A stretch of DNA of 49,095 nt from Tepidanaerobacteraceae bacterium. Lineage in GTDB: Bacteria > Bacillota > Thermosediminibacteria > Thermosediminibacterales > Tepidanaerobacteraceae. Positions 14,003-32,643 of the stretch are shown piece after piece. The position numbers and the translations under genes are program-made. Below the pieces are notes generated by a model, which saw only the letters and a program-made list of their open reading frames with translations, had not been told where the DNA came from and did no database searches. The stretch lies in contig JARRBK010000009.1 in the NCBI GenBank assembly GCA_029982615.1, positions 1 to 49,095 of the forward strand, written 5' to 3'. The number at the start of each line of letters is the position of its first letter. Within the stretch, counting starts at the first letter, position 1.

Positions 14003-14334
14003 GAAGTTCCCCCTCTTTCTTAATTATTTTTAATTATTATTATTTTTAATTATCTCCCTTATATGCTTGAAATCAAAGCAAAACATGCCATTTTTGCGGT
14101 CGAAAACTTACATTTTTATATCAGTTATTTATAATAATAACACCCTTCACGAACATATGTCAAAATTATGTCAGTTTTTCATCGGATTTTGGTTTTAGAC
14201 TTTAGCATCCATGTAGCTATGAAAACTAATCCCTCTTTTGTATTTTGGGATCCAATTATCATAATGAAAATAAATTAGATGTAATATTCTATAAAAATAA
14301 TATAATTCCTCTTTTTTGTAAGCTTTTTTTGCAT
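14003..14334. other. Upstream region of livK, no gene
   Basis: About 330 AT-rich bases lie between livK and the rnf terminator. I see the livK ribosome site at about 14008-14016 and a candidate promoter (listed separately). I find no convincing open reading frame, T-box or riboswitch. Confidence 0.6.
14134..14163 (-). promoter_or_regulatory. Candidate promoter of the liv operon
   Basis: On the minus strand TTGACA (14158-14163) is followed after 18 bases by TATTAT (14134-14139). The leader to livK would be about 125 bases. Confidence 0.55.
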
Positions 14335-14369
14335 AAAAAAAGAGGATACCTTAAGTATCCTCTTTTTTT
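14335..14369 (-). terminator. Terminator of the rnf operon
   Basis: AGAGGATAC (14341-14349) and GTATCCTCT (14355-14363) form a perfect 9-bp stem with a 5-base loop, flanked by six A and at least six T. It lies just after the rnfB stop on the minus strand. Its symmetric flanks would let it act in both directions. Confidence 0.9.
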
Positions 14370-14381
14370 AAATAGCCTCCA

Positions 14382-16661: not shown

Positions 16662-17203
16662 TAGAAATCACCTCCCACGGGAAAGATTTTAGTAACCTTT
16701 GCCAAAGAGCTCTTAATGGCGTTTGCAACCGCCGTAGGAGAAATAGTAGCTCCTGTTATAACCTTGACATCCTTTTTTGGAATGAACTCGTCATTAACAG
16801 ATTTACCCTTGAATTGGTCCGTAAAATCTGGTTCTTTTATTCTTGCCCCCAAACCTGGTGTTTCAGACATTGATAAAATTTCTATTCCTGTGAGTTTACC
16901 TTCTCTAGGGGCATATCCCACCATTATTTCAATTGGACCGCTAAAACCCGAGCCTGTGGTTTTAAAAGCAATACCTTTTTTATTTCCCTGATTATCTGTG
17001 CCAATATAAAATGTCATGCCTTCCTTTTCAACGGTTTGAATTTTTTCCGCTCCCGGAATAACCTTTAACACCGCTTGCTGCAAAGCTTGTTGTGTCTGCT
17101 CCTGAATTCTGGGATTTGTTACTTCATAAGATAAAGCCAGCACGCCACCAGATACAAGAGAAATAATCACTAGCACCACTATCATTCTCATGTATTGATT
17201 CAT
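16661..17203 (-). CDS. rnfG: Rnf complex FMN-binding subunit RnfG
   Basis: This 180-residue protein has one N-terminal membrane helix (MIVVLVIISLVSGGVLAL) and an extracytoplasmic FMN-binding domain. The motif GATISPTAV near the C-terminus contains the threonine expected to be joined to FMN by ApbE. A GYAPREGKLTGIEIL segment and SETPGLGARI are typical of the family. The gene overlaps rnfD by four bases and has GGAGAGGTG upstream. An apbE gene lies about 14 kb away in this window. Confidence 0.94.
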   Translation of the reverse strand: MNQYMRMIVVLVIISLVSGGVLALSYEVTNPRIQEQTQQALQQAVLKVIPGAEKIQTVEKEGMTFYIGTDNQGNKKGIAFKTTGSGFSGPIEIMVGYAPREGKLTGIEILSMSETPGLGARIKEPDFTDQFKGKSVNDEFIPKKDVKVITGATISPTAVANAIKSSLAKVTKIFPVGGDF

Positions 17204-18123
17204 TTCGCCTTCACCTCTCCATATATCCTGGGTACGGTATATCTGTTTATTACAGGAGTGAAGGCGTTCATCAACAATATGGAAAAGGATACGCCTTCAG
17301 GATACCCGCCATAAAATCTGATAATTACAGTAAAAATGCCGGCTCCCAAGCCAAAAATTATTTTCCCCAATTTGCTGATTGGTGATGTCACCATATCGGT
17401 AGCCATGAAAAAAGCCCCTAGCATCAATCCTCCTGAAAGAAGTTCAAACAGTGGATCGCGCCCTAACAATGCGGATAGTATCGCTACCGTCCCCAGATAA
17501 AATACTGGAATTCTCCATTCTATATACCCTTTATATAACAAATACAATCCGCCCAAAATAATCAACAATGCCGAAGTCTCTCCCATAGAACCGCCTATAT
17601 TTCCCAGAAAAAGTCTCGCATAATCGGTGGAAACGCCCTGCATCTTCATTATTTGCAATGGCGTAGCGCCGGTGGTCCCATCCACTGGGTTTATCCATGT
17701 GGTCATCTGCACTGGAAAAGAAATCATCAAAAACACTCTGCCGATGAGTGCTGGGTTGAAAGGATTCATTCCTAGGCCACCGTAAACCTGTTTCCCCAAT
17801 GAAATAGCTACTGCAGCGCCTACTACCGCCATCCACAAAGGGAGCCCAGGCGGCAGGTTCAATGCCAGAAGAATCCCCGTAACCACAGCACTTCCGTCCC
17901 AAATAGTAACAGACTTCCCTCTAAGTTTTTGAAATATAGCTTCGGTTAAAACAGCTGCCAAAACAGTAGTTATGATAAGTATCAGTGCCCTCAAGCCAAA
18001 AAAATATATCCCCGCAGCAGCCGGCAAGAGCAAGGCTCCGGCTACGTTGAACATTATCTTCTGAACACTTTCTCCCGAATGAATGTGGGGAGAAGAAGTG
18101 GTAATAAGCTTATATTCTTCCAT
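17200..18123 (-). CDS. rnfD: Rnf complex membrane flavoprotein RnfD
   Basis: This 307-residue protein has about nine to ten membrane helices. DGTTGATPLQIM contains the threonine of the covalent FMN site, and GGLGMNPFNPALIGRVFL is a family signature. It accepts electrons in the membrane and couples them to sodium or proton movement. GGAGGG precedes the ATG. The gene lies about 105 bases after rnfC and overlaps rnfG. Confidence 0.94.
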   Translation of the reverse strand: MEEYKLITTSSPHIHSGESVQKIMFNVAGALLLPAAAGIYFFGLRALILIITTVLAAVLTEAIFQKLRGKSVTIWDGSAVVTGILLALNLPPGLPLWMAVVGAAVAISLGKQVYGGLGMNPFNPALIGRVFLMISFPVQMTTWINPVDGTTGATPLQIMKMQGVSTDYARLFLGNIGGSMGETSALLIILGGLYLLYKGYIEWRIPVFYLGTVAILSALLGRDPLFELLSGGLMLGAFFMATDMVTSPISKLGKIIFGLGAGIFTVIIRFYGGYPEGVSFSILLMNAFTPVINRYTVPRIYGEVKAK

Positions 18124-18229
18124 CCGAAAAATCCCTCCTGCCTATCTTTTAATTTTTTATAATAAAGAATGTTGGATTTCTTAAGCTTTGTTTTACTACT
18201 AATTTTAAAACAGGCTGCTCAAATTTAAT

Positions 18230-19546
18230 TTATTTTTTCTTCGAGGCGATAATGTGATTTTTAGCAAGTCTAATAAGCTGAGTCAAGGGTATATGAGCCG
18301 GGCACACATAGGCGCAACATCCGCATTCTATACAATCTAAGGCGTGATACTCTTCTGCTTCGTCCCACATACTTCTTTCTGCCAGTTTGCCTAGGGTTGT
18401 AGGAAGCAAATGTATGGGACAAGCATCCACACACTTGGCACAGCGGATGCAAGGCGACTGCTCGGCTAAGACCACATCTTTTCTCTCAAGAATAAGTATG
18501 CCGGAAGTTCCTTTAACTGCAGGAACATCCAATAATGACTGGGCCAAGCCCATCATAGGGCCACCCATAATAACCTTGCCTACCTCTCCCTGAAATCCTC
18601 CGCACTGTTCAATAATTTCAGAAAAAGGTGTGCCGATTCTTATTAACAGGTTTTTGGGCTCTTTTATACCGGGGCCGGTTACTGTTGTTATCCTTTCTAC
18701 CAGAGGCATTCCGGTTTTGAGAGCTGTGGCAATGGCTGCGCATGTACCCGCATTGTCCACTATTACATGCACATCCATGGGAAGGCCGCCCGAAGGCACT
18801 TCTCTGCCAGTTACGGCATTTATGAGCTGTTTTTCACCGCCTTGAGGGTACTTAGTAGCCAACTCTACTACCTGTATGCCTTTTTTACCTTCCACGGCAT
18901 GTTTGATGGCTTCAATAGCATCGGGTTTGTTTGCTTCAATAGCTATATACCCGTTTTCTACCCCCGTTGCCTTCATGACAGCTTCAAGGCCCATTACAAC
19001 ATCCTCGGGCCTTTCTACCATCAGCCTGTGGTCTGCCGTCAGATACGGTTCGCACTCGGCTCCGTTTACGATGACGGTGTCTATTGTTTTTCCTGGAGGA
19101 GGCGACAACTTTACCTGTGTGGGAAAGCCCGCGCCTCCCATGCCCACAATGCCAGCCTCACGAATAATGCTTTTTATTTCGTCTGGAGTCAATTCGTCCA
19201 GCGGTTTCGGAGGCTTTAAGTCTTCAAAAACCTCATCTTTTCCATCGGATTCTATCACCACCGATACCACCATTCCCCCACCGGGATGAGGCCTGGGTTC
19301 CACAGCCGATACTCTCCCTGAAATGCTGGCATGAATCGGAGCTGATACAAAGGCTTTTGCCTCACCTATTTTTTGCCCTTTTTTCACCGTATCGCCGACC
19401 TTAACTATAGGTTCACACGGAGCTCCCACATGCTGGCTCATGGGGATTATGACCCTGTCTGGAATTTTTGCCATTTCCACGGGTTTATGTTTTGTAAAAT
19501 CTTTATTGTAAGGAGGATGTATGCCTCCTCTGAAGGTTTTGAGCAT
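18230..19546 (-). CDS. rnfC: Rnf complex NADH-binding subunit RnfC
   Basis: This 438-residue peripheral protein is where NAD+ is reduced or NADH oxidised. It has an N-terminal biotin-like/barrel region, a flavin and NADH domain like that of complex I 51-kDa subunit (GMGGAGFPTQVKL, VNGAECEPYLTADHRLM), a SLBB-like domain, and two [4Fe-4S] motifs at the C-terminus (CIRCAKCVDACP and CIECGCCAYVCP). GGAGAGGTG precedes the ATG. It is the first rnf gene. Confidence 0.95.
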   Translation of the reverse strand: MLKTFRGGIHPPYNKDFTKHKPVEMAKIPDRVIIPMSQHVGAPCEPIVKVGDTVKKGQKIGEAKAFVSAPIHASISGRVSAVEPRPHPGGGMVVSVVIESDGKDEVFEDLKPPKPLDELTPDEIKSIIREAGIVGMGGAGFPTQVKLSPPPGKTIDTVIVNGAECEPYLTADHRLMVERPEDVVMGLEAVMKATGVENGYIAIEANKPDAIEAIKHAVEGKKGIQVVELATKYPQGGEKQLINAVTGREVPSGGLPMDVHVIVDNAGTCAAIATALKTGMPLVERITTVTGPGIKEPKNLLIRIGTPFSEIIEQCGGFQGEVGKVIMGGPMMGLAQSLLDVPAVKGTSGILILERKDVVLAEQSPCIRCAKCVDACPIHLLPTTLGKLAERSMWDEAEEYHALDCIECGCCAYVCPAHIPLTQLIRLAKNHIIASKKK

Positions 19547-19933: not shown

Positions 19934-21682
19934 CTATACCTCAGGATACAGCGGCCGTTTGGTGTAATGTGTATGAAGCAGTTGATGGGATTTTTCGCTC
20001 AGGGGTTTTCCCAAAAATTCCTTATAAAGTGTCTGGACTGCCGGGTTTTCATGGGACTTTCTCAACTTCATGCTGCGGTCCACTTCATATATGGCTTTTC
20101 CCCTCTCCTCTCTATAATCCATATCCCATCGCTCTTCAGCGCTTAAAATAGGCTGGCCGCCGCCGCCAACACATCCACCCGGGCAGCACATAATTTCTAT
20201 GAAATGATAATTGGCCTCGCCACTCTTGACTCGGTCCAACACCTTCCGGGCATTGGAAAGTCCGTGGGCTACCGCCACATTCACTCTGGTGCCGTCTATA
20301 TCTATGGTGGCTTCTTTGATTCCTTCAACGCCGCGGACTTCAGTGAATTCTATATTCTGGAGCTCTTTGCCGGTTACAACTTCATACACTGTTCTCAAAG
20401 CAGCTTCCATAACGCCTCCGGTGGCTCCAAAAATCGCGCCAGCGCCAGTGGATATACCCAGAGGATCGTCAAACTCTTCATCCGGCAGTTTGCTCAAATC
20501 TATGCCTGCCTCTTTCAGCATTCTGGACAGCTCTCGCGTGGTCAGGGCCACATCCACATCCTGATAGCCACTGGAATTCATCTCAGGTCTCTGGGCTTCG
20601 AATTTCTTAGCTGTACACGGCATTATGGATACCACAAATATCTTGGAGGGATCTATGCCCATTTTCTCGGCATAATAGGTTTTGGCTACAGCGCCGAACA
20701 TCTGCTGCGGTGACTTGCATGTGGAAAGGTTATCCAGAAGTTCAGGATAATAGTGCTCACAGAATTTAATCCAGCCCGGACTGCAGGATGTTATAAGTGG
20801 CAGCTTTCCTCCGTGCTTAAGCCTTTTCAGAAACTCGTTTCCTTCCTCCATTATGGTCAAGTCAGCGGCAAAATTCGTGTCGAAGACCTTGTCAAAACCC
20901 AGTCTTCTCAGGGCAGCAGGCAATTTCTTGGTAACAATTGTACCTACTCCTTCCCCAAATTCTTCTCCCAGAGAAACCCTGATGGCTGGAGCCGTCTGGA
21001 CTATTACGTGCTTGTCCGGGTCAGCCAAAGCCTGCCACACTTTGTCGGTATCGTCCTTTTCTTTCAATGCTCCCACCGGACATGCCAGTATACACTGGCC
21101 GCAGTTTACACACGCAACTTCCGCCAGGCTCATGTCGAAAGCCGGTGCAATTACAGTATTAAAGCCTCGATGGTTTGGAGAAATCACTCCCACGCCCTGT
21201 ACTTTGTGACAAGTACTTACACACCTGCGGCAAAGGATACATTTTGATGCGTCCCTTACAATTGACGGCGAAAAATCGTCATACTTGGGAGCATGTTTTT
21301 CTCCTGGGTATCTAATGGATTTTATCCCCAGTTCTTCAGAGAGCTTCTGCAGTTCACAGTTGAGGTTTCTGACACAGGTGGGGCATTCGAGGTTGTGGTC
21401 CGACAGCAAAAGCTCTAGAGTCACCTTCCTGGATTCCCTCACAGCAGGCGAATTGGTTATCACTTCCATGCCCTCGGAAACCGGAAGCACGCAGGAAGCC
21501 TGAAGGGCTCTTGCTCCTTTTACTTCCACAACACACATGCGGCATGCGCCGATTTCGTTTATGCCTTTGAGAAAGCATAGCGTTGGAATCTTGATATTGG
21601 CCTTGTGTGCTGCTTCCAACACCGTTGAACCTTTTGGTACTTCTACTTTTTGACCGTCTATTGTCAATGTAACCATTTCCAT
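19934..21682 (-). CDS. hydA: Electron-bifurcating [FeFe] hydrogenase catalytic subunit HydA
   Basis: This 582-residue enzyme makes or oxidises H2. An N-terminal [2Fe-2S] domain (CRMCVVEVKGARALQASC) is followed by a His-Cys cluster region (HNLECPTCVRNLNCEL), two ferredoxin clusters (CILCRRCVSTC, CVNCGQCILACP) and the H-cluster domain with TSCSPGWIKF, MPCTAKKFE and EIMCCPGGCVGGGGQP. The TSCSP form of the first motif is as I recall it for trimeric bifurcating enzymes. A small-subunit-like tail follows (AVQTLYKEFLGKP). With HydB and HydC it couples NADH and reduced ferredoxin to proton reduction in the cytoplasm. It ends the long rex-hyd operon and is followed by two hairpins. Confidence 0.95.
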   Translation of the reverse strand: MEMVTLTIDGQKVEVPKGSTVLEAAHKANIKIPTLCFLKGINEIGACRMCVVEVKGARALQASCVLPVSEGMEVITNSPAVRESRKVTLELLLSDHNLECPTCVRNLNCELQKLSEELGIKSIRYPGEKHAPKYDDFSPSIVRDASKCILCRRCVSTCHKVQGVGVISPNHRGFNTVIAPAFDMSLAEVACVNCGQCILACPVGALKEKDDTDKVWQALADPDKHVIVQTAPAIRVSLGEEFGEGVGTIVTKKLPAALRRLGFDKVFDTNFAADLTIMEEGNEFLKRLKHGGKLPLITSCSPGWIKFCEHYYPELLDNLSTCKSPQQMFGAVAKTYYAEKMGIDPSKIFVVSIMPCTAKKFEAQRPEMNSSGYQDVDVALTTRELSRMLKEAGIDLSKLPDEEFDDPLGISTGAGAIFGATGGVMEAALRTVYEVVTGKELQNIEFTEVRGVEGIKEATIDIDGTRVNVAVAHGLSNARKVLDRVKSGEANYHFIEIMCCPGGCVGGGGQPILSAEERWDMDYREERGKAIYEVDRSMKLRKSHENPAVQTLYKEFLGKPLSEKSHQLLHTHYTKRPLYPEV

Positions 21683-21706: not shown

Positions 21707-23500
21707 TCAAACTTTTGTTATAGCGCCAAACGGACACCTATCATAGCAGCTGTTGCATTTAATACATTTTTCTTGATCTATCACATGGGGCTGTTTTCTC
21801 TCGCCGCTTATGGCTCCAGTGGGACATACTTTGACACAGAGGCTGCATCCCCTGCACTTGTCGGCCACAACCTCATAATGAATGAGCGCTTTGCATGCAC
21901 CCGCGGGGCACCTTTTTTCCTTGATATGGGCCTCATACTCATCCCTGAAATAGCGAATGGTGGAAAGCACAGGGTTTGGAGCTGTCTGGCCCAATCCGCA
22001 CAGTGCGGAAGCCTTTATGCTCTTGGCAAGGTTCTCCAGGAGCTCTATGTCTCCTTCCCTGCCTTCCCCGTTGGTTATGCGCTCTAGAATCTCCAGCATC
22101 CTCTTGGTGCCGATGCGGCAGGGGGGACATTTGCCGCAGGATTCATCCTGGGTGAAGGTCAGGAAGAACTTTGCAATATCCACCATACAGTTGTCTTCAT
22201 CCATGACAATCATGCCGCCGGACCCCATCATTGAACCTGCCTGCACGAGCGTATCATATTCTATGGGCATATCCAGAAGCGATGCCGGAATACATCCGCC
22301 AGAAGGGCCTCCAGTTTGCACTGCCTTAAATTTCTTCCCGTTGGGAATACCACCGCCAATCTCATAGATGACTTCCCTTAGGGTTGTGCCCATCGGTATC
22401 TCTACGAGGCCGGTATTGTTAATCTTGCCGCCAACAGCAAACACTTTTGTGCCCTTGCTCTTTTCCGTGCCGATGCTTGCGAACCAATCGGCTCCCTTTA
22501 AAATTATCATCGGGATGTTCGCATAAGTTTCCACATTGTTTATGATGGTAGGTTTGCCCCACAGGCCCTGATTTGCCGGAAATGGCGGCCTCGGCCTTGG
22601 TTCGCCGCGTCTACCTTCTATCGAAGCCAGGAGCGCTGTTTCCTCTCCGCACACAAAAGCTCCTGAACCCAGCCGCAGGAAAATATCAAAATTAAAACCT
22701 GTTCCCAAAATGTTTTTCCCCAGCAAGCCATGCTCCCTTGCCTGGTTTATGGCTATTTCCAACCTTTTCACAGCAATAGGATATTCTGCCCTTACATATA
22801 TATACCCTTCGCTGGCTCCTATGGCATAGCCTGCGATTTCCATCGCTTCCAGCACCGAATGGGGGTCGCCCTCCAGAACGCTCCTATCCATGAAGGCTCC
22901 CGGGTCTCCTTCATCGGCGTTGCAGACCACATATTTTATATCGCCTTTGGCATCGGCAGCAAACTGCCATTTGACGCCTGTGGGAAAGCCTCCTCCTCCG
23001 CGGCCCCTGAGCCCTGATTTTTTGACCTCGTCTATAACCTGCTGGGGCGTCATCTGGGTCAAAACTTTGGCAAGCGCTTTATACCCATCGTTGGCGATGT
23101 ATTCTTCGATAAGCTCAGGATTTATAAGGCCACAGTTTCTCAGGACTATGCGTTTTTGCTTTTTGTAAAAATCTATATCTGTAAGCGCCCTTAAACGCTC
23201 TTCGGTAAGATGTTCCTTATACAAAAGCCTTTCCACAATGCGCCCTTTAATCAGGTGCTCCTCCACTATTTCTGGTACGTCTTCAGGTTTAACCCTGCAG
23301 TAATAACTTCCTTCAGGATAAATCAGTACATTGGGCCCCAATTCGCACAGCCCCAGGCAGCCAGTCTGCACTACCCTGACTTCCTTTGAAAGGCCTCTTT
23401 TATCTATTTCCTTCTGAAAAGCATCCATCACATTCTCGCTGCCGGAAGCCGTACAGCCGGTCCCTTTGCAGACGAGCACATGAGCTCTGTAAATTTCCAT
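21707..23500 (-). CDS. hydB: Bifurcating hydrogenase NADH-binding flavoprotein HydB
   Basis: This 597-residue NuoF-like subunit has an N-terminal thioredoxin-fold [2Fe-2S] domain (CKGTGCTASGS, TGCLGLCELGP), the FMN/NAD core (GLRGRGGGGFPTG, NADEGDPGAFMDR), the [4Fe-4S] motif ESCGKCPPCRIG, and two C-terminal ferredoxin clusters (CRGCSLCVKVCP, CIKCNSCYDRCP). It is the expected bifurcation centre of the HydABC complex. AGGAGGG lies before the ATG. It is placed between the small [2Fe-2S] protein gene and hydA. Confidence 0.95.
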   Translation of the reverse strand: MEIYRAHVLVCKGTGCTASGSENVMDAFQKEIDKRGLSKEVRVVQTGCLGLCELGPNVLIYPEGSYYCRVKPEDVPEIVEEHLIKGRIVERLLYKEHLTEERLRALTDIDFYKKQKRIVLRNCGLINPELIEEYIANDGYKALAKVLTQMTPQQVIDEVKKSGLRGRGGGGFPTGVKWQFAADAKGDIKYVVCNADEGDPGAFMDRSVLEGDPHSVLEAMEIAGYAIGASEGYIYVRAEYPIAVKRLEIAINQAREHGLLGKNILGTGFNFDIFLRLGSGAFVCGEETALLASIEGRRGEPRPRPPFPANQGLWGKPTIINNVETYANIPMIILKGADWFASIGTEKSKGTKVFAVGGKINNTGLVEIPMGTTLREVIYEIGGGIPNGKKFKAVQTGGPSGGCIPASLLDMPIEYDTLVQAGSMMGSGGMIVMDEDNCMVDIAKFFLTFTQDESCGKCPPCRIGTKRMLEILERITNGEGREGDIELLENLAKSIKASALCGLGQTAPNPVLSTIRYFRDEYEAHIKEKRCPAGACKALIHYEVVADKCRGCSLCVKVCPTGAISGERKQPHVIDQEKCIKCNSCYDRCPFGAITKV

Positions 23501-23531: not shown

Positions 23532-23906
23532 TTAAATGTTGGGGATTACCCAGTCATCTATTATCTGATTATTTATGATGTGCTTTACTACAATTTGGCG
23601 GGCTTTGTCTTCATTGACATTCACATAAGTCACTTTCGGCTGGTTTGGCTTGATTACATCCACCAATGGTTCAAACTTGCAAAGTCCAATACAGCCGGTT
23701 TCAGTAACTATGACGTTATCCAAATTTCTTTTCTTAAGCTCATCCAAAATTGCCAGCATTGTCTGCCTAGCACCAGCAGCTATGCCACATGTCCCCATTC
23801 CCACAACTACACGAGTTTTAGTTTCATTGTCTTTTCTTAAATTAATCAAATCCTTGGCCTGTTCTCTGATTTTTTCCAGTTCCTCTATTGATTTTATAGC
23901 AGCCAT
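23532..23906 (-). CDS. Thioredoxin-like [2Fe-2S] ferredoxin protein of the hyd operon
   Basis: This 124-residue protein has a thioredoxin-like ferredoxin fold similar to the C-terminal part of NuoE and the N-terminal part of HydB. GMGTCGIAAGA supplies one cysteine and TGCIGLCKFEPLVDV two more; a fourth classical ligand is not evident, so cluster binding is uncertain. Proteins of this kind are commonly encoded between hydC and hydB in Thermoanaerobacter-like operons, and may be an accessory electron carrier or an extra subunit. GGAGGTG precedes the ATG. Confidence 0.8.
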   Translation of the reverse strand: MAAIKSIEELEKIREQAKDLINLRKDNETKTRVVVGMGTCGIAAGARQTMLAILDELKKRNLDNVIVTETGCIGLCKFEPLVDVIKPNQPKVTYVNVNEDKARQIVVKHIINNQIIDDWVIPNI

Positions 23907-23908
23907 TT

Positions 23909-24466
23909 TTATACACCTCCGCTTATTTGCTTTAAATTTTCCTCCACAAAGGCTTTTATCCAGTCAAGCACCATGGGGTTGGATATGGGAACATCCTGCA
24001 GCGTCTTTTTTATTTCCCTGGTATCCAGCACAAATTCACCGCCGTCAATACGATGCCTGTAGATAAAATCCTTCCCCGGGTTTGCCGCTACCAGCAGCAC
24101 CATGGTATCTGACATATTTCCAAGAGGCGGCCTATCTATATGGCTTCTTACGAAACTTGCTTTGATTCTAGTTCCCTCTCCCACTTTAGAATAAATCTCA
24201 AGCTCTCCCCCACAGCTTTTTGCGGCCTGTTCAAACAGGGGCAGCCCCAACCCCACTTTTCTGGTGGTCCTGGTAGTGAAAAAGGGGTCTTTCACTTTTT
24301 GCAAAGTAGTTTCATCCATGCCCCTGCCATTATCTATTATCTCTATAATCATGACATCTTTTTTTGTATCCTCGTCGATATTTATCTCTACTAGCGTGGC
24401 TCCTGCGTTTATAGAGTTTTCAACAATGTCCAGCACATGTAGCGAAAGCTCTTTCATCATAATCAT
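23909..24466 (-). CDS. Stand-alone HATPase (histidine-kinase-like ATP-binding) protein
   Basis: This 185-residue cytoplasmic protein has a GHKL ATPase fold near its N-terminus: N box ENSINAGATLVEI, G1 box DNGRGMD, an F-box FFTTR and G2 box VGLGLPLFEQAA. It lacks a dimerisation/phospho-acceptor histidine domain, so it is not a complete sensor kinase. The C-terminal 70 residues have no recognised motif. Its ATG overlaps the hydC stop by four bases, so it is tightly coupled to the hydrogenase. A role in redox or H2-dependent regulation, for example as an anti-sigma-like kinase, is inferred from the neighbours. Confidence 0.85.
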   Translation of the reverse strand: MIMMKELSLHVLDIVENSINAGATLVEINIDEDTKKDVMIIEIIDNGRGMDETTLQKVKDPFFTTRTTRKVGLGLPLFEQAAKSCGGELEIYSKVGEGTRIKASFVRSHIDRPPLGNMSDTMVLLVAANPGKDFIYRHRIDGGEFVLDTREIKKTLQDVPISNPMVLDWIKAFVEENLKQISGGV

Positions 24467-24951
24467 TCATATTTTTCCAGGATTTCAGGGACTTTATCGG
24501 GCGTTAATCTGCCGTATACTTCGTCATTGATTATTATGGTTGGCGCAAGCCCGCAGGCCCCCACGCATCGGCAAGCATCCAGAGAAAACTTGGCATCATC
24601 TGTGGTATCTCCCACTTTTATGCCCAACTCCTTTTCAAGCCTTTCGAGGACTTTGTGGGCGCCTCTTACATAGCATGCTGTGCCGAGGCACACCCTTATC
24701 TGATATTTTCCCCTGGGCTTTAAATTAAAGAAAGAATAAAAAGTTATGGTGCTGTAAACTTCACTCAGGGTAACATTCAGTGCCTCAGCAACCCTCTTTT
24801 GCACCTCCATGGGAAGATAGCCTACTATACCCTGGGCTTCCTGCAGGGCTTGAAGCAACGCGCCCCTCTGGCCTTTATACTTTTCCAGCATTTCATCGAC
24901 TTTTTTCAGCTTTTCTTCCAGCCCAAAATCTTTTTTGACAGCAGCTTCCAT
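24463..24951 (-). CDS. hydC: Bifurcating hydrogenase NuoE-like subunit HydC
   Basis: This subunit of about 162 residues has the NuoE fold: an N-terminal helical bundle (GALLQALQEAQGIVGYLPMEVQ) and a thioredoxin-like [2Fe-2S] domain with cysteines in VCLGTACYVRGA and ACRCVGACGLAP. It passes electrons between HydB and HydA. The ATG at 24951, six bases after GGAGAGG, is better placed than the ATG at 24957. It follows the PHP gene by about 50 bases, the largest gap inside the operon. Confidence 0.93.
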   Translation of the reverse strand: MEAAVKKDFGLEEKLKKVDEMLEKYKGQRGALLQALQEAQGIVGYLPMEVQKRVAEALNVTLSEVYSTITFYSFFNLKPRGKYQIRVCLGTACYVRGAHKVLERLEKELGIKVGDTTDDAKFSLDACRCVGACGLAPTIIINDEVYGRLTPDKVPEILEKYE

Positions 24952-25005
24952 TTTCATCCTCTCCTTTACAAGTAATTGTATTCTTTTTCACTTTTTCGTC
25001 TGCAT

Positions 25006-25752
25006 TTACTCTTTTATAATTACGCGCCTCCCTTCCACTCCTTTAAAAGCCTTTTTAATCTCTACAAAATTTGGTGTTTTTATATATAAAAATGTTTTTT
25101 GAAAAACCATCTCCTTCAGCCTGTGAGCGTCAGAAGAGGTTATTATGCTATACTTATCGGGTATATTAAACTTTCGTCTTGCTTCTTTCTCTGAAACATT
25201 CCTTGAAATTTCTATTGCACTTATCTCTAAATCAGCAGGTATGAATCCCAATTGACCCATCAGGCTATAAGTCTTTCTGTCGATATGGGCAGGAACCAAC
25301 ATACCCCCCATTTTTAAAACTCTCTGAGATATCTCTTCGGCAGAGGCCGAAATAGCTGAAATTAACATCTTGTCTTCTTCGCCGGTGATATTGGAATCCC
25401 TATCCACAATCTGCTGCGGGCCGAAGAATTTGGGGTTGTTTTTTATCGCGGGTAGATGTTTGTAAACATAATCCTGCCACTCCATCATGGTATTTAAATC
25501 CTCAAAAAAAACAAGCAGATGGGCTTCTTCAGCACTTTCCACTTCCATACCCGGAATTACCGTTATATCATAATCTTCTGCGGCTTCCTGCACGGGCTTG
25601 ACGTTTTTTGCACTGTTGTGGTCGCATATGGCTATAATTTTTGTCCCCATAAGCTTTGCCATATTTAAAATGTTTGCCGGGTTCATTTCTTCATCAGCGC
25701 AAGGCGACAGGCAGGTATGAATGTGCAGGTCCGCCGGATAAGCTTTTAGCAT
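25006..25752 (-). CDS. PHP domain phosphoesterase
   Basis: This 248-residue enzyme has the metal-binding motifs of the PHP superfamily: DLHIHTCLSPC at the N-terminus, CDHNS, the EVESAEEAH region, PAHIDRKTYS and, near the C-terminus, SSDAHRL. These residues bind two or three metal ions for phosphoester hydrolysis. The substrate is unknown; it could be a phosphoprotein or a small metabolite. The gene overlaps the upstream DRTGG gene by seven bases, so it belongs to the signalling part of the hydrogenase operon. Confidence 0.85.
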   Translation of the reverse strand: MLKAYPADLHIHTCLSPCADEEMNPANILNMAKLMGTKIIAICDHNSAKNVKPVQEAAEDYDITVIPGMEVESAEEAHLLVFFEDLNTMMEWQDYVYKHLPAIKNNPKFFGPQQIVDRDSNITGEEDKMLISAISASAEEISQRVLKMGGMLVPAHIDRKTYSLMGQLGFIPADLEISAIEISRNVSEKEARRKFNIPDKYSIITSSDAHRLKEMVFQKTFLYIKTPNFVEIKKAFKGVEGRRVIIKE

Positions 25753-26096
25753 TTTTCCCGGCTCCTCGATAGCAAGTTATAAAGCATACCACATATCTCA
25801 TATATGGTTTTTTGCGTTGAGAATACAGGGATATTTTCCTCTTCAGCTTTTTTTATCGTGTTTTGCTCTACTTCCACACCTTCTGCCACGATGACCCCTG
25901 CAAGGCCCAATAGTGAAGCAACCGCTATTATATTCTGATGGCTCTGAATCGTCACCCATACTTGATTTTCCCGGGCGTGGGCCATAACCCAGCTTAAAAG
26001 GTCTGAAGCATAACCGCCATCCACCTGCCTGTTTTCATCCATATTGCTGGTAAGCAATTTTAGTTCAAGCCTTTCCTTCAATTCAAGCAAAGTCAT
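25746..26096 (-). CDS. DRTGG domain protein
   Basis: This 116-residue protein is a single DRTGG-type domain, like the central region of CBS/DRTGG regulatory proteins and of phosphate acetyltransferase N-terminal regions. Recognisable elements are VDGGYASDLLSWVM, NIIAVASLLGLAGVIVAEG and PVFSTQKTIYEICGMLYN. These are thought to bind a small ligand, but none is known. It resembles the first half of the DRTGG/HATPase protein two genes upstream. Overlaps of four and seven bases with its neighbours show translational coupling. Confidence 0.8.
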   Translation of the reverse strand: MTLLELKERLELKLLTSNMDENRQVDGGYASDLLSWVMAHARENQVWVTIQSHQNIIAVASLLGLAGVIVAEGVEVEQNTIKKAEEENIPVFSTQKTIYEICGMLYNLLSRSREKC

Positions 26097-27439
26097 TTGT
26101 GCTCACCCCCCTTGCTTTTTTCCATGGTAGGAGGAAGTTTCTGGGAAAGATCCAGCATTTCCGCTGCCAACTGCTTAACCTTGTCTCTTAATTTAAACAG
26201 ACAATCCGTTTCGTTTGCCTCGCCTTGCACTATATCTTCCGCAAGAGCCCTGCAATTGGGCGAACCGCAGCTGCCGCAATCCAAGCCAGGCAGTTCCTTC
26301 AGGGTCCTTTCCAGCTGTTCCATTTTTTGTATAGCCTTCGCTATATCTTCGTCCAATCTAAGGGAGGGCTTTGGAAGAATTTTTTCCTCAAAATCATAGT
26401 ATTTTTTTTCAAGTCTATCGATAACTTCTTTTATATCTATTGAGCTTTTGCTTCCTAATTTCTCAAAAAGCCTTCGGATTCTCACTCGGGCAACGAATTG
26501 ATTTTCTACCGTCAGGGCTCCTCCGATGCATCCGCCTATGCACGCCTGACATTCAATGTAATCTATGTCTGACAGTTTGTTTAATTCTACTTCTTCCAAA
26601 ACTCCTATACAGTTATGAATCCCATCGACTGCTAGGTGGTTATCGCCCCCTATGGCCTGGTTTTCGCCTCCTGCACTTCCCCAGCCTATGCCAATACCCG
26701 AGGCTCTGCCGAATATCGATTCGTATTCGTCATCGCTCAAATTTTTTATTACTTCAGCGTATACGTTTGCAATAGACAGCACGCCGTCTACGAAGGATTT
26801 ATCAGCACCAATGGGCTGTTTTACTGAAGTAACCTTGGCCGGGCACGGGCTTATGAAGAAAACGCCTATTTCTTCGCTTTTTATACCATACCTGTCCACC
26901 AATATTTCTTTTGCTCTTTTTGCAGCTATTTCAACAGGTGCTTTAATGGGTATAACATTTTTTATAAGCTCTGGAAACCTTACCTGAATTAGCCTCAAAA
27001 CCGCAGGGCATGAAGATGAGATTAGAGGCCTAATATCTGTATGGCGCTTTATATATTCCCTTATGGCAATTGAAACCTCTTCAGCTGCCAAAGGCACTTC
27101 ATATATTTCATCGAATCCAATTTTCTTGAGAGCACTTAGTACACTATTTATAGATGTCCCTTCCTTAAATTGACCATAAAAGCTGGGCGCGGGCAGTGCT
27201 ACTTTAATTTTGAATTGCTTTAGCTTCTCAAAATCATCTACGGTTGCGTATTTTGCATGATTTGGGCAGACCCGTATGCATTCGCCGCAATCGATGCATT
27301 TGTTTTCCATTATATGGGCCTTCCCGTTTCTAACTCTTATGGCCTCGGTGGGGCAGCCTTTTATGCAGTTAGTGCATCCTCTGCATTTTTCTATATCGAG
27401 AGTAACCGAGTGGTAATCCCGCCACAAGATTATCACCAT
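26093..27439 (-). CDS. Putative sensory [FeFe] hydrogenase (HydS-like, no PAS domain)
   Basis: This 448-residue protein begins with two ferredoxin clusters (CRGCTNCIKGCP, CIDCGECIRVCP), continues with an H-cluster domain and ends with a further four-cysteine Fe-S motif (CGSCGSPNCRALAEDI...C). The H-cluster loops read SSSCPAV, SPCPAK and ECQACIGGCIGG. All four cluster-ligand cysteines appear kept, but the first cysteine of the catalytic TSCCP motif, used for proton transfer, is serine. Such changes are known in sensory types such as the Thermoanaerobacter mathranii HydS of group D, which also lacks a PAS domain and lies in a bifurcating hydrogenase operon. I therefore infer an H2 or redox sensor rather than a production enzyme. 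The start at 27439 has only a weak ribosome site. Confidence 0.82.
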   Translation of the reverse strand: MVIILWRDYHSVTLDIEKCRGCTNCIKGCPTEAIRVRNGKAHIMENKCIDCGECIRVCPNHAKYATVDDFEKLKQFKIKVALPAPSFYGQFKEGTSINSVLSALKKIGFDEIYEVPLAAEEVSIAIREYIKRHTDIRPLISSSCPAVLRLIQVRFPELIKNVIPIKAPVEIAAKRAKEILVDRYGIKSEEIGVFFISPCPAKVTSVKQPIGADKSFVDGVLSIANVYAEVIKNLSDDEYESIFGRASGIGIGWGSAGGENQAIGGDNHLAVDGIHNCIGVLEEVELNKLSDIDYIECQACIGGCIGGALTVENQFVARVRIRRLFEKLGSKSSIDIKEVIDRLEKKYYDFEEKILPKPSLRLDEDIAKAIQKMEQLERTLKELPGLDCGSCGSPNCRALAEDIVQGEANETDCLFKLRDKVKQLAAEMLDLSQKLPPTMEKSKGGEHK

Positions 27440-27453
27440 CTTTCATTAAGAAG

Positions 27454-28263
27454 CTAAAGGTTAATTACCATTCTTACTTTTGTCCCTTTTCCGACAACAG
27501 AAGTTATTTCGAAAACGTCTGAAAATTTCTTCATATTTGGAAGGCCCATGCCTGCTCCAAACCCTAGTTCTCGCACGCGGTCTGGAGCAGTAGAAAATCC
27601 TTCCTGCATGGCTTTTTCGATATCAGCTATGCCCGGGCCTGTATCTTCTGCTATGACTTCAATATATCGGGGAGTAATATTAAAACTCAAATTTCCCTTT
27701 TCCGCATGAATTACAATATTCATCTCAGCTTCATACGCAACGATTGATACCCTCCTGATGGCTGATGAATTAGCTCCTATCTGCTTGAGTATCTTTTTAG
27801 CCTGTTCTGTAGCTTTACCGGCGTTGTTAAAATCGTTGCCTTCAATGTCATAAGAAAGTTTCATGCCCTGGAGATTTTCCTGCTCTTTTTCCACTGCTAT
27901 AGTCCCTGCTTCTGTCGGAGCTTGGTCACCTCTTAAACCCTCTTTATATAAGATTCCACAGGTTTCATAAAGAGGATGTTTTGTGCTAAGCAGCGGAAGT
28001 TTATGCTGTTTGGCAAGCTCAACAACGTCCTCTGGCGGAATTTTACCCCGTACAAATACAATAGCAGCAAAATCTGCCATGCTGGCTGTTTGAATTATCT
28101 GCCGATGCGTAAGCCCTGTAAGAAGAATAGCGTTAGTTTTCGTGTCTGCCAGTATATCACTCATAAGATCAGCACCGCAAGCATTGGCAACTTCTATATC
28201 CAGCAATTCTTGCCCCCATAGTATTTGTGCCTGCAGTAAATCTTTAATTCTCGAAAGTTTCAT
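27454..28263 (-). CDS. DRTGG-HATPase fusion regulatory protein
   Basis: This 269-residue protein has two parts. Residues 1 to about 115 are a DRTGG-type domain (ANACGADLMSDILADTK, STKHPLYETCGILY). Residues from about 140 on are an RsbW-like GHKL ATPase (YEAEMNIVIHAEKG as N box, EDTGPGIAD as G1, GFGAGMGLPNMKKFSD as G2). It has no phospho-acceptor histidine, so it resembles anti-sigma-factor kinases more than sensor kinases. It overlaps the rex stop by four bases. Its place between rex and the sensor-like hydrogenase suggests that the DRTGG part receives a metabolic signal and the ATPase part transmits it; the target is unknown. Confidence 0.85.
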   Translation of the reverse strand: MKLSRIKDLLQAQILWGQELLDIEVANACGADLMSDILADTKTNAILLTGLTHRQIIQTASMADFAAIVFVRGKIPPEDVVELAKQHKLPLLSTKHPLYETCGILYKEGLRGDQAPTEAGTIAVEKEQENLQGMKLSYDIEGNDFNNAGKATEQAKKILKQIGANSSAIRRVSIVAYEAEMNIVIHAEKGNLSFNITPRYIEVIAEDTGPGIADIEKAMQEGFSTAPDRVRELGFGAGMGLPNMKKFSDVFEITSVVGKGTKVRMVINL

Positions 28264-28895
28264 CTAGTATCCTCCAGATAATATGTCAAGTATTCCAGCT
28301 GCGCCGCAAGGTCCACCCTACGGAGCATTACATTGTCTCCAGTAATATTAATATTCACGGGAGCAAAATTAATGATACCCCGTATTCCGGCCTCCAGCAA
28401 TTTATCCGCCACTTCCTGAGCCGCTGAAGCCGGTACCGCTATGATGCCCAATTCAATGTTGTGGATTCGCGCTTTTTCCCCCAGCAAATCAATATGGCAT
28501 ATTTCAATACCCGCAAGTTTTTTGCCTATTTTACTGGGATCGGTATCAAAAATACAGGCTATATCAAATCCCCTTTCAGAAAAGCCTTTATACTGCGATA
28601 AAGCTCGGCCAAGATTTCCAGCGCCCACTATTGCCACCGGCCATCTTCTCCCCAAACCGAGGATTTTCATTATATAATTGTAAAGCTCTCTTGAATTGTA
28701 TCCTACCCCTCTTGTTCCAAATTCGCCAAAATATGCCAAATCTTTTCGCACTTGTGCCGGAGTCACGCCGGTGGCCTTCGCTATTTGCTGGGAAGATACT
28801 GTATCAATCCCTTTTTCGTCGGCTTCTTTCAGATAACGAGAGTACAGAGATAACCTTCCAATTGTGGCATCGGGTATCTTGAATTTTTTAAACAT
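28260..28895 (-). CDS. rex: Redox-sensing transcriptional repressor Rex
   Basis: This 211-residue repressor has an N-terminal winged helix (IGRLSLYSRYLKEADEKG, TPAQVRKDLAYFGEFGTRG) and a Rossmann NAD(H) domain (VAIVGAGNLGRALSQY) with a C-terminal domain-swap helix (LAAQLEYLTYYL). It binds its operator when NADH is low and lets go when NADH rises. I set the start at the ATG at 28895, matching the family N-terminus FKKFKIPDATIGRL; GGGAGTG lies about 13 bases upstream. The open frame extends to 28973 but the extra 26 residues look like leader. It is the first gene of the hydrogenase operon and lies just downstream of a perfect Rex operator. Confidence 0.94.
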   Translation of the reverse strand: MFKKFKIPDATIGRLSLYSRYLKEADEKGIDTVSSQQIAKATGVTPAQVRKDLAYFGEFGTRGVGYNSRELYNYIMKILGLGRRWPVAIVGAGNLGRALSQYKGFSERGFDIACIFDTDPSKIGKKLAGIEICHIDLLGEKARIHNIELGIIAVPASAAQEVADKLLEAGIRGIINFAPVNINITGDNVMLRRVDLAAQLEYLTYYLEDTR

Positions 28896-28990
28896 GGTAA
28901 ATGAATCACTCCCTAGATTTGATTTTAACACAGCAATCCGGTTTTTACAATAGTGATAAGAGAAAAAAATCACAAAGTTATAATATTGTC

Positions 28991-29020
28991 TATAGATTGT
29001 TAATTTTTTAACAATCTATA
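28991..29020. promoter_or_regulatory. Rex operator at the head of the rex-hyd operon
   Basis: The core TTGTTAATTTTTTAACAA (28997-29014) matches the Rex consensus TTGTTAA-N4-TTAACAA exactly. The dyad extends to arms of 13 bp (TATAGATTGTTAA and its complement) around the 4-base centre. It lies about 100 bases before rex and overlaps the stop codon of the upstream permease gene. Autoregulation by Rex is inferred. The promoter boxes around it are not clear. Confidence 0.88.
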
Positions 29021-29750
29021 TATATTTCCATTTGCATATACATCTTTCAATTACATCTAAAAGCGTAAATAGTAAAATCCCTATTATGCTCATTCCCAAA
29101 ATCCCGGCAAAAAGTTCATTATAATCCACGCGGGTCCACGCATCCATTATAAAATACCCTATTCCTCTGGAAGTAGCAAATGTCTCGGTAAAAAAAAGCA
29201 CTGAAAGGGCTGTACCTAGGCTTATCCTTAGCGATGTAAAGATTTGTGGCATGCATGCTGGTATCACCACATGGACGTAGATATCTCTTTTTTTACCACC
29301 CAGGCTTTTTATGGAATCCACGCTCCCTTGAGGAAGGTTCTTGCCCGCGTCTCTAGCGGTGACCGCCATATGAAAAAAAATTATTGTCGAAATCAGCAGT
29401 ATCCTCGGCAAGTCCCCCAATCCGAGCAGCATCAAAAATACAGGCAGAAAAACAATTTTCGGCACTGGATACAGCACAAGGATAATAAATGAAAAAAAAT
29501 CGTCAGCCTTTTGTTCTGTGCCCAGAAGCAGACCAAAAGGAACTCCGGTAAAAAATGCTAAAAACATTGCAGCAAGGATGCGGTAAAGGCTTGCCCATAT
29601 ATGTATTAACAGGCCATTTTCTAATAAATAAGCAAGAGTAATCACTGCACTGCAGGGTGAAGGTATAACCGGCGCACTTATCGCAGAAATCCCCCACCAC
29701 GTTATCGTTAAGGAAATCAAAGCAAAAGCATAACATCTGCTCTTTTTCAT
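29016..29750 (-). CDS. ABC transporter permease, SsuC/TauC/ThiX-like
   Basis: This 244-residue membrane protein has about six helices and the EAA-type coupling loop SIKSLGGKKRDIYVHVVIPA. It is the channel of an importer using the NMT1-type binding protein encoded two genes upstream. Relatives carry sulfonates, taurine, thiamine precursors or riboflavin. Its ATG overlaps the ATPase stop by four bases. Its stop codon lies inside the Rex operator. Confidence 0.87.
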   Translation of the reverse strand: MKKSRCYAFALISLTITWWGISAISAPVIPSPCSAVITLAYLLENGLLIHIWASLYRILAAMFLAFFTGVPFGLLLGTEQKADDFFSFIILVLYPVPKIVFLPVFLMLLGLGDLPRILLISTIIFFHMAVTARDAGKNLPQGSVDSIKSLGGKKRDIYVHVVIPACMPQIFTSLRISLGTALSVLFFTETFATSRGIGYFIMDAWTRVDYNELFAGILGMSIIGILLFTLLDVIERCICKWKYI

Positions 29751-30487
29751 CGGCTATGCCCCCGCATCAGGTTTCTAATAAGGTCCACTGTTTTGTGATA
29801 TTCCTCGCTTTCTCTTACTCCCCATCCGCTGTTGTTTATGACATACAATATCCTTCCGGGCGACTGTGAAAATACAATAACTTTTTGGCCAAGAAAAACG
29901 GCTTCCTCAATGCTGTGGGTTACCAGCAGTATTGTCATCGGGTTTTGCCGCCAAAGGTTTAAAATCTCGCCCTGCATGTTTTCCCGAGTCATAGCATCCA
30001 GAGAAGAAAAAGGCTCGTCCATTAAAAGAAGAGAAGGCGACACCACCAGCGCCCTGCCGATGGCGACCTTTTGTTTCTGGCCGCCGGATAATTGTCCAGG
30101 ATAATGCCGGGCAAAAGGTTTGAGCAATAATTTATCCAAAATGCCGTCTACAATTTTTTTTATTTTTATACAATCTTCTCTTCTGATAACCAGGCCCAAA
30201 GCCACATTCTGCTCCACAGTTTTCCACGGAAAAAGCCCAAAATCCTGTAAAATTACCGCGGTTTCCAGGGATGGCCCCTCCACCCTTTCACCGTTTATGT
30301 ATATATTGCCCTGAGACGGCTTCAATAACCCTGCAATAGTGTAAATTAGCGTGGTTTTACCGCAACCCGAAGGACCGACCAGAGTATATATTTTTCGGTC
30401 CTCCAGTTCTAGATTAATATTGTCCAGTGCTCTCACTCTGGATTTTTCTGCAGAATACTCCACCGAAAGGTTTACAATTTCCAGCAT
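29747..30487 (-). CDS. ABC transporter ATP-binding protein, SsuB/TauB/ThiZ-like
   Basis: This 246-residue ABC ATPase has Walker A GPSGCGKTTL, Q-loop LQDFGLFPW, signature LSGGQKQKVAIGRAL, Walker B LLLMDEPFSSLD and the switch histidine VTHSIEEAVFLG. It drives the neighbouring permease. It lies about 30 bases after the binding protein gene and overlaps the permease gene. Confidence 0.9.
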   Translation of the reverse strand: MLEIVNLSVEYSAEKSRVRALDNINLELEDRKIYTLVGPSGCGKTTLIYTIAGLLKPSQGNIYINGERVEGPSLETAVILQDFGLFPWKTVEQNVALGLVIRREDCIKIKKIVDGILDKLLLKPFARHYPGQLSGGQKQKVAIGRALVVSPSLLLMDEPFSSLDAMTRENMQGEILNLWRQNPMTILLVTHSIEEAVFLGQKVIVFSQSPGRILYVINNSGWGVRESEEYHKTVDLIRNLMRGHSR

Positions 30488-31596: not shown

Positions 31597-32643
31597 TTAT
31601 TCATCCAATTTTTCCAGTTTAAAGCTTTTGTTCGTAATTTTAAATCCGTATTGCCCAATGCCGGAACTTGTGTATATCCATCGATCTCCGGTGACAAAGG
31701 CAGCTTCCACATCAGGCATTTTTTCCACATACTTCATGCCATCTTTCAGTCCCAATGCAAAAACCGCGGTAGAAAGGGCATCAGCGTCTATGGAGCTATC
31801 AGAAATGATGGTGACGCTTACCAGCCCGTTGTCCACCGGATAACCCGTGGATGTATCCAGAATGTGATGATATCGTTTTCCATTCTTAATAAAATACCTC
31901 TCGTAAACTCCGGAAGTCACCAGGGTTTTGTCCGTTACATCCACAGTGGCAAAAGTATTGCCTCTGGGTTCAAATGGGTTTTGTATCCCTATTTTCCATG
32001 GAGAATCATCGGGTTTTCTGCCGATAACATATATGTTGCCGCCAAGGTCCACTACTGCGCTTTTTATACCGCTCGCTTTCAGTATTCGAGCCGCTTCGTC
32101 AGCAGCATAACCTTTAGCTATGGCTCCTAAATCTAATGCCATTCCCGGTTTGCTGAGCATTACACTGTTTTCATTTTCATTTACGACTACATTTTTATAA
32201 TTTACATGCCGCAGGGCAGATTTTATTTCTTCCGGCGATGGCACCCGTGCTTTATCCGTCCCTATGCCCCACAGTTTCACCAGAGGGCCTATCGTTATGT
32301 CAAATCTTCCACGGGAACTCTCAGAGTAATAAATTCCTTTCTTAATAACGTAAAAGGTGTCGGGGCTTACCTTTTGAAAATCCTTTCCTGCTTTCCTGTT
32401 TATCTCAATCACTTCACTGTCATCGCCGCTGGCGGTCATCTTTTTTTGAATATCATTTATTCTGTCAAAGACCCTATCAATAGCCTCCGATGCGTTATCT
32501 CCATAAGCAGTAATCCGAATAATTGTATCCAACATAAAATTGGTTTTTGTGACAGGGTTTTGGGTTTTTGTTGTCCCACAAGATATTAGAAGGCTTGTTA
32601 ACACGATTATAAAAAAATATTTTGCAAATGTTTTCACTGTCAA
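31597..32643 (-). CDS. apbE: FAD:protein FMN transferase (ApbE)
   Basis: This 348-residue lipoprotein (signal ending LLISCGTT) works on the outer face of the membrane and moves FMN from FAD to a threonine on target proteins. Family motifs present include the DTIIRITAYG start, RFDITIGPLVKLWGIG, ALDLGAIAKGYAAD, VDLGGNIYVIG, GKRYHHILDTSTGYPV and DADALSTAVFALG. The obvious targets here are RnfG and RnfD. The start is a TTG at 32643; an in-frame stop lies just upstream, and the only strong ribosome site is 40 bases away across a hairpin (see the leader entry). A GTG two codons downstream is an alternative. Confidence 0.93.
   Translation of the reverse strand: MTVKTFAKYFFIIVLTSLLISCGTTKTQNPVTKTNFMLDTIIRITAYGDNASEAIDRVFDRINDIQKKMTASGDDSEVIEINRKAGKDFQKVSPDTFYVIKKGIYYSESSRGRFDITIGPLVKLWGIGTDKARVPSPEEIKSALRHVNYKNVVVNENENSVMLSKPGMALDLGAIAKGYAADEAARILKASGIKSAVVDLGGNIYVIGRKPDDSPWKIGIQNPFEPRGNTFATVDVTDKTLVTSGVYERYFIKNGKRYHHILDTSTGYPVDNGLVSVTIISDSSIDADALSTAVFALGLKDGMKYVEKMPDVEAAFVTGDRWIYTSSGIGQYGFKITNKSFKLEKLDE

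Follow-up and report, generated by a model that had tools for sequence, protein, structure and literature searches.

A candidate distal Rex operator in a proposed, conserved two-site control region upstream of rexA and hydrogenase genes in a Tepidanaerobacteraceae bacterium

The palindrome at positions 28991-29020 of a 49,095-nucleotide stretch of a Tepidanaerobacteraceae genome (the window) looks like a genuine candidate Rex switch in front of hydrogenase genes. Its core, here called ROP1, is, judged by its sequence, an ordinary Rex operator, and comparison with relatives suggests that it may be the distal operator of a rexA-hyd control region conserved across the order Thermosediminibacterales. 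A second, proximal Rex-like site (block2) would lie just upstream of the -35 element. We propose that a Q-type paralogue, RexB, encoded elsewhere in the source genome on contig C48, would read the distal GTTA/TAAC site and that the adjoining K-type RexA would read the proximal GTGA one, with both NADH sensors acting on one promoter. The pairing of ROP1 with RexB and of block2 with RexA is proposed because of the K or Q residue of the recognition helix, the contact to guanine 7, and the GTTA and GTGA motifs. If it behaves as the known family does, Rex free of NADH would repress expression, and a high NADH level would relieve that repression. Taken whole, and including the view that the long arms of the dyad are functionless, this reading has in our judgement a slightly better than even chance of being correct.

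The operator core and the genes downstream

An inverted-repeat scan recovered 28991-29020 as a perfect dyad, TATAGATTGTTAA-TTTT-TTAACAATCTATA, with 13-bp arms and a 4-bp spacer (30 bp in total), one of three dyads in the window with arms of at least 10 bp. The 18-bp core matches TTGTTAANNNNTTAACAA at 14/14 fixed positions and is the sole exact match in the source assembly (1,821,798 bases; reversed-pattern control, 0). The first-pass annotation had described an exact Rex consensus within a 30-base dyad with 13-bp arms that overlaps the permease stop codon, and all of this holds: the stop TAG (29016-29018, minus strand) falls within the right end of the dyad. As an 18-bp inverted repeat, ROP1 fits TTGTKAANNNNTTMACAA at 14/14, and it is placed 5' of a redox gene and kept in relatives (19/21 genomes). 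Twenty Markov samples of the window gave no 14/14 match. When up to 3 mismatches are allowed, the whole window holds 8 matches vs 6.42 expected from shuffles, so that nothing but the exact site is noteworthy; at up to 2 mismatches, the source genome holds 24 sites vs 18 in the control, barely over chance. Elsewhere in the window, a longer perfect inverted repeat (14334-14370, 16-bp arms) has A and T runs on its flanks and a terminator-like look.

The features of the control region are as follows.

29016..29750, minus strand: ABC permease, taurine/sulfonate-like by family profile matches (all scores below cut-offs), with its stop inside the dyad
28991..29020, no strand assigned: full 30-bp perfect dyad with 13-bp arms (inverted-repeat scan); the extension past the core is peculiar to the source genome
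28997..29014, minus strand: candidate distal Rex operator core ROP1, TTGTTAAAAAATTAACAA; 14/14 match, kept in 19/21 rexA upstream regions
28958..28975, minus strand: block2, proximal Rex-like block, TTGTGATTTTTTTCTCTT, with G-type half-sites; form kept in 21/21
28945..28950, minus strand: predicted -35, TTGTAA (promoter prediction and alignment of relatives)
28922..28930, minus strand: predicted extended -10, TGTTAAAAT, with the start placed near 28915 (promoter prediction; TGnTAnAAT in 21/21)

Downstream lie rexA and a hydrogenase gene cluster.

28260..28895, minus strand: rexA, K-type Rex with helix QVRKDLAYFG (NCBIfam NF003993, 296.4 bits, cut-off 217; relatives in the PDB)
27454..28263, minus strand: DRTGG and HATPase protein (Pfam)
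26093..27439, minus strand: Fe-S protein with [FeFe]-hydrogenase large-subunit C-terminal domain (PF02906, PF04060), which we take to be HydS-like
25746..26096, minus strand: DRTGG protein (PF07085)
25006..25752, minus strand: PHP-domain protein (PF02811)
24463..24957, minus strand: NuoE/HydC-like [2Fe-2S] subunit (NCBIfam)
23909..24466, minus strand: HATPase-domain protein (PF02518)
23532..23906, minus strand: 2Fe-2S ferredoxin-like protein (weak NCBIfam matches below cut-off; no Pfam match)
21707..23500, minus strand: NuoF/HydB-like flavoprotein (TIGR01959, 526.1 bits, below the cut-off of 558.65; NF010120, 414.9 bits, cut-off 389)
19934..21682, minus strand: HydA, NADH-dependent [FeFe] hydrogenase of group A6 (NF040763, 965.6 bits, cut-off 765)

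RnfC and RnfD follow hydA (17200-19546). The gene order from Rex to HydC is colinear in L005, L006, L008, L009, L010 and L012, while L007 and L011 end early. Upstream of rexA, both here and in 8 named relatives, lies apbE (FMN transferase, 31597-32643 in the window), giving an apbE-rex-hyd-rnf neighbourhood (rnf in the source only). The DRTGG, HATPase and PHP proteins at 23909-28263 sit inside the hydrogenase operon, and DRTGG and PHP are kept in the relatives examined.

The relatives compared comprised 80 named loci, the best 80 of 564 from one scan, and 22 genomes of the order, with species overlap between the two sets. The ATG at 28895 was taken as the start of rexA; relatives lend no support to the GTG at 28973 in the open reading frame list. 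The core GTTAA-N4-TTAAC stands upstream of rexA in 19/21 genomes and is degenerate in G013 and G002. Exact core matches over these 21 genomes number 17, of which 14 are upstream of rexA (control, 0), and in the 8 closest of the best 80 of 564 loci the core upstream of rexA scores 12-14/14.

The best predicted rexA promoter, on the minus strand, pairs the -35 and extended -10 elements listed above at a spacing of 17 bp. Alignment of the 21 genomes shows the -35 region TATTG(T)AAAA to be likewise kept, with an additional A in G013. Directly upstream of this -35 lies block2, TTGTGA-N6-TCnCTT, which recurs in the form xTGTGA-N6-TCnCTx in 21/21 genomes. Its centre falls 49-52 bp ahead of the predicted start in the 21 genomes, and the gap to the -35 is 5-7 bp in 17 of them; in the other four (G003, G012, G018 and G014) the scan called a false -35 by catching TTGTTA of ROP1, so that their gaps were excluded and the -35 was taken from the alignment. 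By our own count block2 matches the GTGA consensus at 10-11/14, and it is kept in 21/21; its right half retains GnGA, the contacted bases, and the base between them varies. Block2 resembles a Rex site built from the alternative kind of half-site (GTGA). The first-pass annotation had the operator controlling entry to the rex-hydrogenase operon. A Rex-type site at the entry of rex-hyd, kept in 19/21 genomes and leading here to a group A6 hydrogenase, bears out the association. ROP1, however, is 46 bp from the predicted -35, on its upstream side, and so would not lie over the promoter, whose start site is itself a prediction; overlap with the core promoter is common among Rex operators but does not define them. 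Block2, the second Rex-like element, is closer to the promoter than ROP1, and the Rex encoded next door appears not to be the paralogue of ROP1's motif class.

Two Rex paralogues and their possible sites

In the order, rexA occurs in 21/22 genomes and RexB in 20/22, and both are present in 14/14 genomes that are at least 90% complete. The two proteins of the source genome are 39% identical; RexB scores 334.1 bits with NF003990, above the cut-off of 233, and bears the Q-type helix QIRQDLNNFG. The helix residue (K51 in RexA, Q52 in RexB) is K in 80/80 rexA relatives (best 80 of 564) and in 21/21 genomes of the order, and Q in 20/20 RexB. The solved structure nearest to RexA (184.8 bits) is that of Thermotoga maritima Rex, and the one nearest to RexB is 3WG9 (269.5 bits), Thermoanaerobacter ethanolicus Rex, which has the identical helix QIRQDLNNFG. 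The species of these structure entries follow in part PMC8836258.

As far as the accessible parts of the two structural reports go, T. maritima Rex contacts Gua5 through Arg48 and both Gua7 (O6) and Ade8 through Lys49 (PMC8836258), and Streptococcus agalactiae Rex contacts the O6 of guanine 7 through Arg51 (PMC8376106). By our alignment, guanine 7 would be base 5 of TTGTG, the position at which GTGA and GTTA part. Published motifs, so far as the excerpts give them, include ATTGTTANNNNNNTAACAAT of the GTTA type for T. ethanolicus Rex (PMC5886521), GTTA as the clostridial consensus (PMC12044746) and GTGA as the general one (PMC6391272). The available text of PMC8836258 adds that the T. maritima crystal operator also carries a GAGA half and that the contact residues are highly conserved among the four homologues compared, and this conservation counts against a simple K/Q rule. 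In the order, the fifth base of the half-sites is T in 38/38 of ROP1 and G in 21/21 left and 21/21 right halves of block2; these bases are set by the search patterns themselves, and the unconstrained alignment of the 21 genomes provides an independent check, which agrees.

Several comparisons blur this picture. A reference motif, ttGTgAattaatTcACaa, learned from the DNA preceding 72 rexA relatives that belong to other lineages than the order, ranks block2 first in 13/21 genomes and second in 8/21, with ROP1 the other where present, and is weak evidence since it partly overlaps TATAAT boxes. Its fifth base is G at 0.48 and T at 0.29, and both sites score alike, leaving the classes unseparated. 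Other targets in the order bear mixed G/T sites, so the classes are possibly not cleanly separated. The best site upstream of RexB in the order reaches 12/14 for a mixed pattern in 6/20 genomes, and none is higher. RexB and ROP1 are not consistently lost together: G002 is without both, G013 keeps RexB alongside a degenerate ROP1, and in G007 (89% complete) ROP1 is present and RexB was not found. In a phylum-wide K/Q check of 149 genomes, the exact patterns occurred in 14 and 8 genomes, too rare to be informative, with control matches in several. Helices were typed for the 40 best-ranked Rex matches among those listed. Upstream of 19 Q-helix rex genes, only 4 had a GTTA-type site of at least 12/14.

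The strongest competing explanation, possible although we think it unlikely, is ordinary autoregulation, in which RexA alone would repress through both sites and RexB would have other targets; it extends the first-pass reading by one site. The rexA gene adjoins both sites, the motif derived from K-type rex upstream regions outside the order scores ROP1 and block2 similarly, and Streptococcus mutans offers published precedent for a Rex that controls its own gene and for a rex promoter with a pair of Rex sites, as described in the available part of PMC3441419. Against this, half-site types are strictly segregated at the rexA promoter, and what the structures suggest for the helix residue, as drawn from the accessible text of PMC8836258 and PMC8376106, favours distinct readers. 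Moreover, 0/72 rexA relatives outside the order (among the best 80 of 564) have a GTTA-type site above 11/14 in the 160 bp before rexA; two of these same 72 loci reach 13/14 for the GTGA pattern.

The proximal block, operator spacing and dyad arms

Rather than serving RexA, block2 could be a CRP/FNR-type site or an overlapping promoter (TTGTGA as -35, TATTGT as -10), leaving ROP1 as the only Rex site; we regard this as doubtful. The arrangement GTGA-N6-TCAC is common to CRP-type sites, which speaks for it, as does the fact that TTGTGA and TATTGT are both kept, 15-17 bp apart as read from the alignment. Each of these hexamers, however, matches the sigma-70 consensus at only 4/6, and conservation of the right half of block2 tracks the Rex contact bases.

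The distance from the centre of ROP1 to the predicted start is 89-91 bp in 11 genomes, 80 bp in 1 and 69-70 bp in 7, and that between the centres of ROP1 and block2 is correspondingly 39-41 bp (11 genomes), 30 bp (1) and 19-20 bp (7). These values near whole helical turns are suggestive of helical phasing, on the basis of about two changes. A third, degenerate Rex-like site, TTGAYAATAATATAACAT, is seen between ROP1 and block2 in G008, G010, G006 and G012.

It is improbable, in our estimation, that ROP1 is activating or phase-dependent, with Rex at about -70/-80/-90 touching RNA polymerase or the protein at the proximal site. Such a role would accord with the spacing classes near whole turns while block2 stays constant at 49-52 bp, with the overlap of other Rex-like sites in the order with the -35 or their position near the start, and with the activator role for Rex proposed in S. 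mutans (PMC3441419, available part). The spacing classes nevertheless represent only about two independent changes, for which we estimate a chance of roughly 0.1-0.2, the start site comes from prediction and not from mapping, and Rex has been described chiefly as a repressor.

Returning to the two-operator reading, we advance its fuller form only tentatively: two paralogues of differing DNA specificity would read one hydrogenase promoter through two same-face operators about 20, 30 or 40 bp apart, and the inputs of two NADH sensors, which might differ in set point and of which one might activate, would thereby be integrated at rex-hyd-rnf.

The arms of the dyad call for a separate account. In other genomes of the order they are 5-8 bp long, and 10 bp in G014 only. 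Aligned to the same-genus genome G001, the right arm is identical, and the left arm shows an 8-nt gap and a changed base at three positions; at each of these three the letter in the window completes the dyad, and the window letters also make the TAG stop. The two nearest named relatives (L005 and L006) have the same ABC genes between apbE and rexA. In the other 6/8 the upstream match is apbE and an ABC gene is matched in none, which indicates that the stop overlap is confined to one lineage. The stress that the first-pass annotation laid on the 13-bp arms and the stop overlap is therefore not sustained. Because the extra length is absent in relatives, we infer that it is a recent local change without function, and the length of the dyad is most likely a local accident. 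A template-switch change in the source lineage would explain the left-arm differences from G001, and an assembly artefact could also have produced the long arms, the source genome being 68.5% complete. Selection for long arms is unsupported, given the short arms elsewhere and the differing left arm of G001.

The same annotation had suggested a weak hairpin ending the ABC-transporter mRNA. We consider a terminator or 3' hairpin of the ABC operon very improbable: the permease stop does lie within the dyad and the dyad does fold as RNA, but its z of -2.43 is as expected for any perfect dyad, 28800-29800 holds no terminator-like site (a G+C-containing stem followed by a T run), the long arms are not kept in relatives, and in 6/8 named relatives apbE is upstream with the ABC gene unmatched. 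No known RNA element was found in 28700-29300.

Known systems and further Rex-like sites

That Rex controls hydrogenase genes is already known, and the two-paralogue, two-operator layout would be a testable variant of it. In T. ethanolicus, T. saccharolyticum and T. kivui, the operator TTGTTAANNNNTTAACAA has a core identical to ROP1, and sites are predicted close to adhE, ldh and the genes for hydrogenase and its maturation (available parts of PMC5886521 and PMC12044746). Unlike in these clostridial and Thermoanaerobacterales systems, the Rex encoded beside the site here belongs to the other helix class, and ROP1 is separated from the promoter by a block of GTGA type. Caldicellulosiruptor bescii Rex similarly controls hyd, ech, hydG and rex: gel shifts showed binding upstream of hydrogenase operons, and rex belongs to its own regulon, although C. 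bescii has a single rex gene and the general GTGA consensus, according to the accessible text of PMC6391272. The S. mutans rex promoter resembles the proposed layout in its two Rex-binding sites, one of them over the -35, and differs in having one Rex and one site class, as far as the available part of PMC3441419 describes it.

T. maritima, a hydrogen producer, also has two Rex paralogues, Rex1 and Rex2, and Rex1 carries a K-type helix like that of RexA. Rex2 presumably adjoins hydABC, and we know of no dual-operator promoter in T. maritima. Our literature searches found nothing for TM1427 or for Tepidanaerobacter with Rex and hydrogenase, and, among the papers listed, no report of two Rex paralogues of one genome acting on one promoter.

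What appears worth testing is a promoter with two conserved sites in organisms that encode a pair of Rex proteins. If the proposed pairing is true, a Rex gene that adjoins an operator need not encode that operator's reader, and the order would offer a natural test of how a single helix residue, K or Q, determines the choice between GTGA and GTTA. In this order of anaerobes, an NADH-dependent hydrogenase would then also be coupled to a pair of NADH sensors.

Elsewhere in the order, Rex-like sites stand ahead of a [2Fe-2S]/hydrogenase-like operon (C52 of the source, also G007, G010 and G012), a pyridine nucleotide-disulphide oxidoreductase (C69 of the source), an NADH:flavin oxidoreductase (C34 of the source), and CO dehydrogenase, formate dehydrogenase-like and alcohol dehydrogenase-like genes, these last identified from protein starts only. 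This redox context speaks for the proposed reading, although several matches fall within genes. The site of the hydrogenase-like operon includes the -35 TTGACA, and those of L131, L142 and L150 lie downstream of the likely -10. Such sites over the -35 or past the -10 represent the usual blocking layout, from which the rexA-hyd region departs. L142 and L150 (both at about 1440-1560), as well as L131 and L146, may carry tandem Rex-like sites on either side of the -10, separated by about 32-40 bp as judged by eye, and one of these tandem sites begins with the -35 TTGACA.
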